From Clostridiaceae bacterium (GTDB lineage: Bacteria; Bacillota; Clostridia; DSM-8532): 33,679 bases of DNA. Within the stretch, counting starts at the first letter, position 1. Each line of letters opens with the position of its first letter. Where the stretch lies: contig JAAYKJ010000239.1 of the NCBI GenBank assembly GCA_012522505.1, positions 1 to 33,679 of the forward strand, written 5' to 3'. The translations under genes were made by a program, and so were the position numbers. The notes beneath the pieces are model-generated. The model saw nothing but the letters and a program-made list of their open reading frames with translations. It was not told the DNA's origin and made no database searches. Shown here piece after piece: positions 4,291 to 21,393 of this stretch.

Positions 4291-5982
4291 TTACATTTTA
4301 TCTGGTGCCTGTATTCGAATCAAATTAAGAACATTCCTGATGACCGTTAAGGTACAGTTAACCAGCAGCAACCTGGCCTGTAACAGATTCTCCTCTTCTC
4401 CCTTTACCCGACAGGCATTGTAAAAACTGTGGAACCCGGAGGCCACGTCCATGACATAACGGGTTAACCTGCTAGGCTCCAGCGTTTGCGCCGACAGCGC
4501 TACCTCCTCGGGATATTGTGCCAGCTTTTTCATCAATGCCAGTTCCTCAGGTTGAACCAACAGAGTCATATCCACCTTTTCAATGGGTTTTTGCGTGATA
4601 TTCTCTTCGGCTAGTTTTTTAAGAATATTGCAGATCCTGGCATGGGCTTATTGGACATAAAAAACTGGGTTGTTTTTGGATTGTTCTACCGCCAGGTCCA
4701 TGTCAAAATCAAGATGACTGCCCGAAGTTTTGAGGTTGAAAAAAAACCTTGCCGCATCAACGCCAACCTCATCCAATAGGTCATCAAGAGTGATGGCTCG
4801 TCCGGTTCTTTTTGACATTCGTGCAATTTCACCGTTTTTATACAGGCGAACCAGTTGGAACAGCACTATCTGTAATCTGTCTTTTTGAACACCGCAGGCT
4901 TCCATCGCTGCTTTCATCCTGGCTACATGCCCATGGTGGTCCGCACCCCAGAGATTGATCACCTGATCAAAGCCTCTTTTAATAAATTTATTGCAATGGT
5001 AGGCAATATCGGCTGCCATATAGGTAGGGAACCCATTCCGCCGGATAAGCACCTCATCCTTTTCCAGGCCTGCTTTTTCACCATCAAGCCATAAAGCTCC
5101 GTCCTTTTCAAGAATAAAGCCTTTCTTCCTCAAAAGGTTCAGTGTTTCTTCCACGTCACCATCGTAAAGAGAGCTCTCTCTAAACCAGACATCGTAGTGA
5201 ATGCCATACCTGGCCAGCCCATCCTCAATTCGTTTTAAATTCTTCGGAAGAGCGTATTCAACCAATACCCTCCTTCTTTCCTCAGCGGGTTTTTCGGCAA
5301 GGCCTGCGCCAAACTCCTCCAGGTAAGCCTTGGCGTGATCGGTTATATCTTCTCCCATATATCCGTCCTGCGGGAACGGTATTCTTTCTTCACCAAAAAT
5401 CTGTTGCAGATATCGTGCTTCCAGCGAAGCACCAAACTTTTCTATTTGGTTGCCCGCATCATTGACATAGAATTCCCGTGTAACGTCATATCCGCATTTT
5501 TCCAATACACTGGCTATGCAGTCGCCCAGAGCGCCTCCTCTGGCATTTCCCATATGCAGCGGACCTGTAGGGTTTGCACTAACAAACTCAACCATCACCT
5601 TCTTGCCTTCGCCGATATTTACTTCTCCATAACCGTCTTTTCTTTCATCGATCAATGCAAGTGTTTCATACAACCATTGGTGGTTTAAATAAAAGTTTAT
5701 AAAGCCCGGGCCTGCAACCTTGGTTTCGGTGATGAACGTTCCTTCTGTCTGGATATATCCCAGAAGAACTTTAGCGATCTGTACGGGTGCCATTTTCGCC
5801 TGTTTTGCAATCTGCATTGCAATATTGGTTGAAAAATCTCCAAAGGATTCCTCTCTGGGATTCTCCAGATAAATTCGAGGCACTTCAACATTGGGAAGCT
5901 TCCCATCGGTTACCGCGCCGCTGATCGCCTTATTGAGCACTGTCTCAATTTGATTGCGGATTTTTTCATAAATACTGTACAT
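4291..5982 (-). pseudogene. argS: Arginyl-tRNA synthetase, interrupted by one in-frame TAA
   Basis: Class I arginyl-tRNA synthetase charges tRNA-Arg. The N-terminal additional domain (about residues 1-115), the HIGH-type motif HMGN (143-146) and the KMSKS-type motif MSKRTG (389-394) are all present. Codon 445 is TAA (4648-4650), after 'NNPVFYVQ'. The same frame then continues without interruption as 'AHARICNILKK' to a natural TAA at 4291, giving 563 codon positions, the normal family length. In ArgS proteins the motif reads VQYAHARI, so the stop replaces a tyrosine and one base change (TAT or TAC to TAA) explains it. The lost part is the anticodon-binding helical domain, so the 444-residue product should be inactive. 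It is last in the ddl-murI-ywiB run. Sequencing error, a second gene copy or readthrough are all possible. Confidence 0.9.
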
Positions 5983-19950: not shown

Positions 19951-21393
19951 CTATTTAATCGAGTAATCCTTAAGAAGCTTTTCTTTCATCTCCCAAAGGG
20001 GTACTGATAAATCGACATAATACCGGTGGGGGTTTTCGAACCGTTTTACTTCATCCCATAAAGCATCGGTCTTCTCTTTGCAATAATCCCTTATCTCCTT
20101 CAGTGCAGGACTTTTATATACGCATTCTCCCTTATTGAAGATTGGTACCAAAAGTTTTTCCGCACGGAAATTGCGAACCGTTTTTCTTTTCCAGGTAAAT
20201 TCCGGGTCAAACAGCTCGTAGGGCTTGTTCTCATCAATTGTTTCATCATGCATTGTCAGCACATCGGCAATCGCTTTCCCGGTTTCTTTGTCAAACAACC
20301 GCCAGACTTGTTTGAAACCAGGGTTAATGACTTTTTCTACATTTTCACTGATCTTGATCCTGGGAACGATTTCCTCATTCTCTTCTACGGCCACCAGCTT
20401 GTACACCCCTCCAAACACAGGCTCGGAACGGGATGTAATCAGACGTTCACCCACACCAAATGAATCCACCTGCGCTCCCTGGACAAGGATATCCCTGATG
20501 ATAAATTCATCCAGTGAATTGGAAGCAACAATCTGACAATCTTCAAATCCTGCTTCATCCAACATTTTCCTCGCCTTTTTGGATAAATATGTGATGTCCC
20601 CCGAATCGATCCGAATTCCTTTAGGCCTGAAGCCTCTGGGGACGATCTCTTCCCTGAAGATTTTGATCGCATTAGGAACACCAGATTTCAGCACACTATA
20701 TGTATCCACCAGCAGAGTACAATTGTCAGGATAAAGCCTCGCATAAGCTCTGAATGCCGCCAATTCATTCGGAAACAATTGTATCCAACTATGTGCCATG
20801 GTCCCAAGGGCAGGGATTCCAAACTCTCTTTCAGCAATCGTACATGCCGTACCAATGCATCCGCCGATATATGCTGCTCGGGCACCATATATCGCACCAT
20901 CATATCCCTGGGCCCTTCTGGATCCAAACTCCATTACACCACGCCCGCCCGCAGCCCGAACAATCCTGTTTGCCTTTGTCGCGATCAGGCTTTGGTGATT
21001 GATTGTTAAAAGAATCATCGTTTCCACAAATTGAGCCTCGATAATTGGGCCTCTGACGGTTACAACCGGCTCATTGGGAAAGATCGGCGTACCTTCAGGC
21101 ATGGCCCAGACATCACAGGTAAACCGAAATCCTTTCAGATATTGCAGAAACGTTTCGTCAAACATCTTTTTCTTGCGCAAATAATCCAAATCCTCGTCTG
21201 TAAACTTTAGATTTTTAAGCTACTGTATCATCTGATGCACTCCGGCCATAATTGCAAAGCCGCCATTATCAGGCACTTTCCTGAAAAACATATCAAAATA
21301 TGCAATTTTTTCCTTTAGCCCGCTTTGAAAATAACCGTTTGCCATTGTAATTTCATAAAAATCTGTTAACATTGTAAGGTTTAGTCGATCCAT
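19951..21393 (-). pseudogene. pncB: Nicotinate phosphoribosyltransferase, interrupted by one in-frame TAG
   Basis: PncB converts nicotinate and PRPP to nicotinate mononucleotide in NAD salvage. The longest open frame (412 codons from 21189) lacks the family N terminus. Reading back in frame, the start is ATG at 21393, preceded by AGAGGGAG: 'MDRLNLTMLTDFYEITMANGYF' (landmark shown in part) is the canonical beginning, followed by 'AYFDMFFRKVPDNGGFAIMAG'-type sequence. Codon 58 is TAG (21220-21222) in the context 'HQMIQ-stop-LKNLKF', where relatives carry an aromatic residue, usually tyrosine. The rest is intact: 'MEFGSRRAQG', 'GTMAHSWIQ', 'DTYSVLKSG' and 'GIRIDSGDI'. Full length is 480 codon positions, normal for the family. 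One base change explains the break. Confidence 0.9.

Follow-up and report, generated by a model that had tools for sequence, protein, structure and literature searches.

The argS gene and its in-frame stop codon

The window, that is, the whole stretch of 33,679 nucleotides that was analysed (positions 1 to 33,679 of contig JAAYKJ010000239.1), comes from an uncultured clostridium and includes on its minus strand a gene coding for arginyl-tRNA synthetase that is interrupted by a single stop codon. The features at this locus are the following:

4291..5982, minus strand: argS (arginyl-tRNA synthetase; Arg_tRNA_synt_N, tRNA-synt_1d and DALR_1 domains), 563 codons in a single frame, interrupted at codon 445 by an internal stop.
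4648..4650, minus strand: TAA in frame, at a position occupied by a tyrosine codon in all relatives read (comparison of the motif with relatives).
4294..4647, minus strand: C-terminal anticodon-binding part (DALR_1) located 3' of the stop, with purifying selection retained (DALR_1 E-value of 3e-32 on its own; pN/pS).

The argS frame begins with the ATG at 5982, ends with the terminal TAA (4291-4293) and is otherwise open, the internal TAA (TTA on the plus strand) being flanked by FYVQ and AHARIC. The Pfam analysis of the read-through product has revealed the N-terminal, catalytic and DALR anticodon-binding domains of an ArgS, namely Arg_tRNA_synt_N (residues 11-99), tRNA-synt_1d (120-406) and DALR_1 (443-563), each scoring above its cut-off. 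An uninterrupted reading frame, also expected of an ArgS, is lacking, with TAA as codon 445 of 563; this interruption is likely a sequence error. The fragment located after the stop was recognized as DALR_1 when searched alone (E-value of 3e-32), and therefore the continuity of the frame across the TAA is not a matter of chance. Since DALR_1 starts at residue 443, the stop deletes nearly all of this domain. The frame and its Pfam domains thus confirmed the description given in the sequence-only reading, an argS frame of 563 positions open except for the TAA at 4648-4650.

argS in related genomes

The source assembly consists of 276 contigs (3.29 Mb, 99% complete, 2.6% contamination), and the closest relatives of the source genome were published as metagenome-assembled genomes. 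The codon corresponding to the stop was TAT in 77 and TAC in 32 of the 109 argS loci of relatives read at this motif, and a stop in none, although some genomes are present in two collections and the number of distinct genomes is a few lower. This site, at the beginning of the anticodon-binding domain, is invariably a tyrosine, so that the proposal that the stop falls on a conserved tyrosine held in every relative read, and the stop itself is private to this assembly. Two genomes of the same genus have argS genes with open frames, 82% identity along the full length and a tyrosine codon at the site, and argS is also unbroken in the other genomes that matched it from end to end.

Only one argS was found in the 276 contigs of the source assembly. 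The gene is therefore not a pseudogene accompanying an intact copy, an explanation that was rejected, and the second intact argS that could have accounted for the stop is excluded as far as the genome has been assembled.

Apart from the TAA, argS shows no decay. Of the 215 columns that do not vary among 29 close relatives, the gene departs at one besides the stop, a number within the range of the relatives themselves. The pN/pS ratio was 0.11-0.14 for the 118 codons located 3' of the stop versus 0.16 before it, and 3' of the stop there were 3 private amino-acid changes versus 12 private silent changes.

The conservation of both parts would also fit a split ArgS, consisting of a catalytic protein that terminates at the stop and a separate anticodon-binding protein translated by re-initiation, for which a GTG and an ATG are available 24 and 26 codons past the stop. 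However, re-initiation at these codons would leave out the 24-26 residues that immediately follow the stop and are part of DALR_1, and no relative with a split ArgS was found, making this arrangement extremely improbable. A natural split was hinted at by two argS matches in one relative (G020), but it was rejected because a run of N interrupts the gene in that contig (L154, G020:C135, about 2390-2450).

Other isolated stop codons in the assembly

A scan for interrupted genes based on codon statistics detected neither of the two cases present in the window, and it was replaced by a comparison with relatives. In this comparison, 811 kb of the source genome were scanned against 1.6 Mb from a relative in the same family whose genome is a single contig (G010), with 261 kb of aligned coding DNA. 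Four isolated stops aligned with orthologues were found, in argS, in the genes coding for nicotinate phosphoribosyltransferase (NAPRTase) and ribosomal protein S4 (rpsD), and in an mcsA-like gene; the remaining hits (gene starts, antisense frames and weak alignments) were judged by eye not to be breaks. The features found in addition to argS are the following:

19954..21393, minus strand: nicotinate phosphoribosyltransferase gene with one in-frame stop, single copy in the assembly.
21220..21222, minus strand: TAG in this gene, at a site occupied by tyrosine both in the PDB homologue 2f7f and in the single-contig relative (comparison with both).
L275:1469-1471 = G000:C20:21469-21471, minus strand: TAA at a leucine position of rpsD (ribosomal protein S4), single copy.
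L214:6624-6626 = G000:C100:6624-6626, minus strand: TAG in the mcsA-like gene (UVR motif), where the relative has tyrosine.

The TAG at 21220-21222 cuts the nicotinate phosphoribosyltransferase gene, and for this reason the list of open reading frames gives it a late start, TTG 21189. The rpsD site is leucine in relatives and in solved structures of S4 homologues; the gene is single copy in the source assembly, and the other genomes matching over its length carry it uninterrupted.

In the reverse comparison, the single-contig relative showed a single plausible break over 280 kb, affecting a gene that is not known to be essential, and no isolated stops were found in 161 kb of the relatives' loci around argS. 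The rate in the source assembly (4 in 261 kb versus 1 in 280 kb and 0 in 161 kb) is thus above that of a good genome, with small numbers and hits sorted by eye.

Other matches were recorded during the scan. A glycosidase-like gene (L191:591-593 = G000:C126:20591-20593, minus strand) has a TAG within a match of only 28% identity and was left out of the count. The NAPRTase matches at G006:C355:3813-5246 and G009:C104:2951-4387 each carried a flag for one TAG. A pattern search that recovered the site of the source genome as positive control did not find TAG at the tyrosine site in these two genomes, and the flags may correspond to the natural stop that ends each match. At G021:C54:4341-5773 NAPRTase is split across two matches that overlap, with a TGA in the N-terminal match; this is likely a frameshift in that genome. 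No stops were present among the ABC-transporter matches listed, a list too short to be given weight.

Suppression or recoding of the stop codons

The presence of several stops in conserved single-copy genes of the same genome, three of the four at tyrosine positions, is compatible with an ochre suppressor that inserts tyrosine. TAA and TAG would then be read through by a suppressor tRNA or because of a weak release system, and ArgS and S4 would be made at a reduced level. Several observations make this very unlikely. A UUA, CUA or UCA anticodon was found in none of the 41 tRNA genes detected, an incomplete set, and tRNA-Tyr has only the GUA anticodon. Long open reading frames are ended by all three stop codons (TAA 136, TAG 78, TGA 97), and the next open stretch past them is short, with medians of 12, 16 and 8 codons, respectively. 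TAA stands for tyrosine in argS and for leucine in rpsD, where leucine is also present in the solved S4 homologues, so that one codon does not correspond to one residue; this, together with the termination of ordinary genes by TAA and TAG, does not fit a recoding with a single meaning. All the PylS hits were below the cut-off, and pyrrolysine at the TAG sites was rejected on this basis. A candidate suppressor tRNA (C115:31-103) was also rejected, as it was low-scoring, was missed by ARAGORN and has CUU (Lys) in the anticodon loop instead of a stop anticodon.

Some expected tRNA genes, among them Ile-GAU, Ala-UGC and Lys-UUU, were not seen in the assembly, and a suppressor gene could be absent in the same way. 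That a suppressor, perhaps inserting tyrosine, lies in an unassembled stretch, with argS, rpsD, the mcsA-like gene and NAPRTase depending on read-through of TAA or TAG, is considered less probable still. A literature search on read-through in bacterial synthetases retrieved nothing directly relevant.

Origin of the stop codon

Isolated in-frame stops can arise through base errors in draft metagenome assemblies. The presence of further lone stops of this kind in conserved single-copy genes indicates that wrong assembled bases, rather than a cell that reads through them, are the likeliest cause. We infer that the TAA in argS reflects an erroneous base in the consensus of this fragmented draft assembly, with a probability of roughly 80%. 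The living organism would most likely have an ordinary tyrosine codon at this position and an intact, ordinary argS, and the stops in NAPRTase, rpsD and the mcsA-like gene would have the same cause, namely consensus errors. Both argS and rpsD are single copy and otherwise under selection, and it is unlikely that both are truly cut without suppression; if real, these breaks would be lethal or crippling.

Nonsense mutations represent 4-5% of random coding changes, and four stops in 261 kb therefore correspond to roughly one wrong base per 3 kb, an estimate that assumes random errors and has a wide margin because the count is four. Two of the four stops are located on the source contig JAAYKJ010000239.1, but this contig was picked because of the argS stop and the coincidence is not remarkable. 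Against a base error, three of the four stops are at tyrosine positions, whereas tyrosine accounts for 19-22% of random nonsense changes, which gives a chance of about 0.02-0.04 of finding at least three of four (calculated by hand). This excess warrants some caution and is no proof of recoding. The literature search on nonsense caused by consensus errors in metagenome assemblies retrieved nothing directly relevant.

Strain variants can enter a metagenome consensus and the source genome is not closed, so the TAA could also be a real nonsense allele caught by the consensus and carried by part of the population, either by cells that are dead or dying or by a strain whose other argS was not assembled here. 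However, one argS and one rpsD were assembled, two independent lethal alleles in a single consensus are unlikely, and neither the invariant columns nor the pN/pS values show relaxed selection on argS. This explanation is considered improbable.

The idea of a real nonsense-interrupted synthetase, proposed from the sequence alone, is thus unsupported and most likely wrong in view of the stops in three more conserved genes, the lack of a suppressor tRNA among those found, and the presence of TAA at both tyrosine and leucine; the alternative raised with it, an assembly base error, is the best-supported explanation. If the stops were real, read-through would be required for both an essential synthetase and a ribosomal protein, and the bacterium would live with natural nonsense suppression. 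When a lone in-frame stop is met in one gene of a draft metagenome-assembled genome, the stop rate across the whole assembly should be taken into account.

Comparison with known systems

This argS resembles bacterial ArgS (Pfam PF03485, PF00750 and PF05746) in having the three domains in the right order and the VQYAHAR motif around the site, as well as in its 82% identity to the genes of the same genus, and it differs in the replacement of the tyrosine codon of the motif by TAA. Some ciliates use codes in which UAR is read as tyrosine. The location of three of the four stops at conserved tyrosine codons is shared with systems of stop-codon reassignment or suppression, but here the sites are few, TAA is also found at leucine, TAA and TAG are still used as terminators and no suppressor tRNA was found among the tRNA genes assembled. 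As in the stops caused by base errors in draft metagenomes, the changes affect a single base, are private to one assembly and lie in genes otherwise under selection, with several unrelated genes affected, essential ones included.
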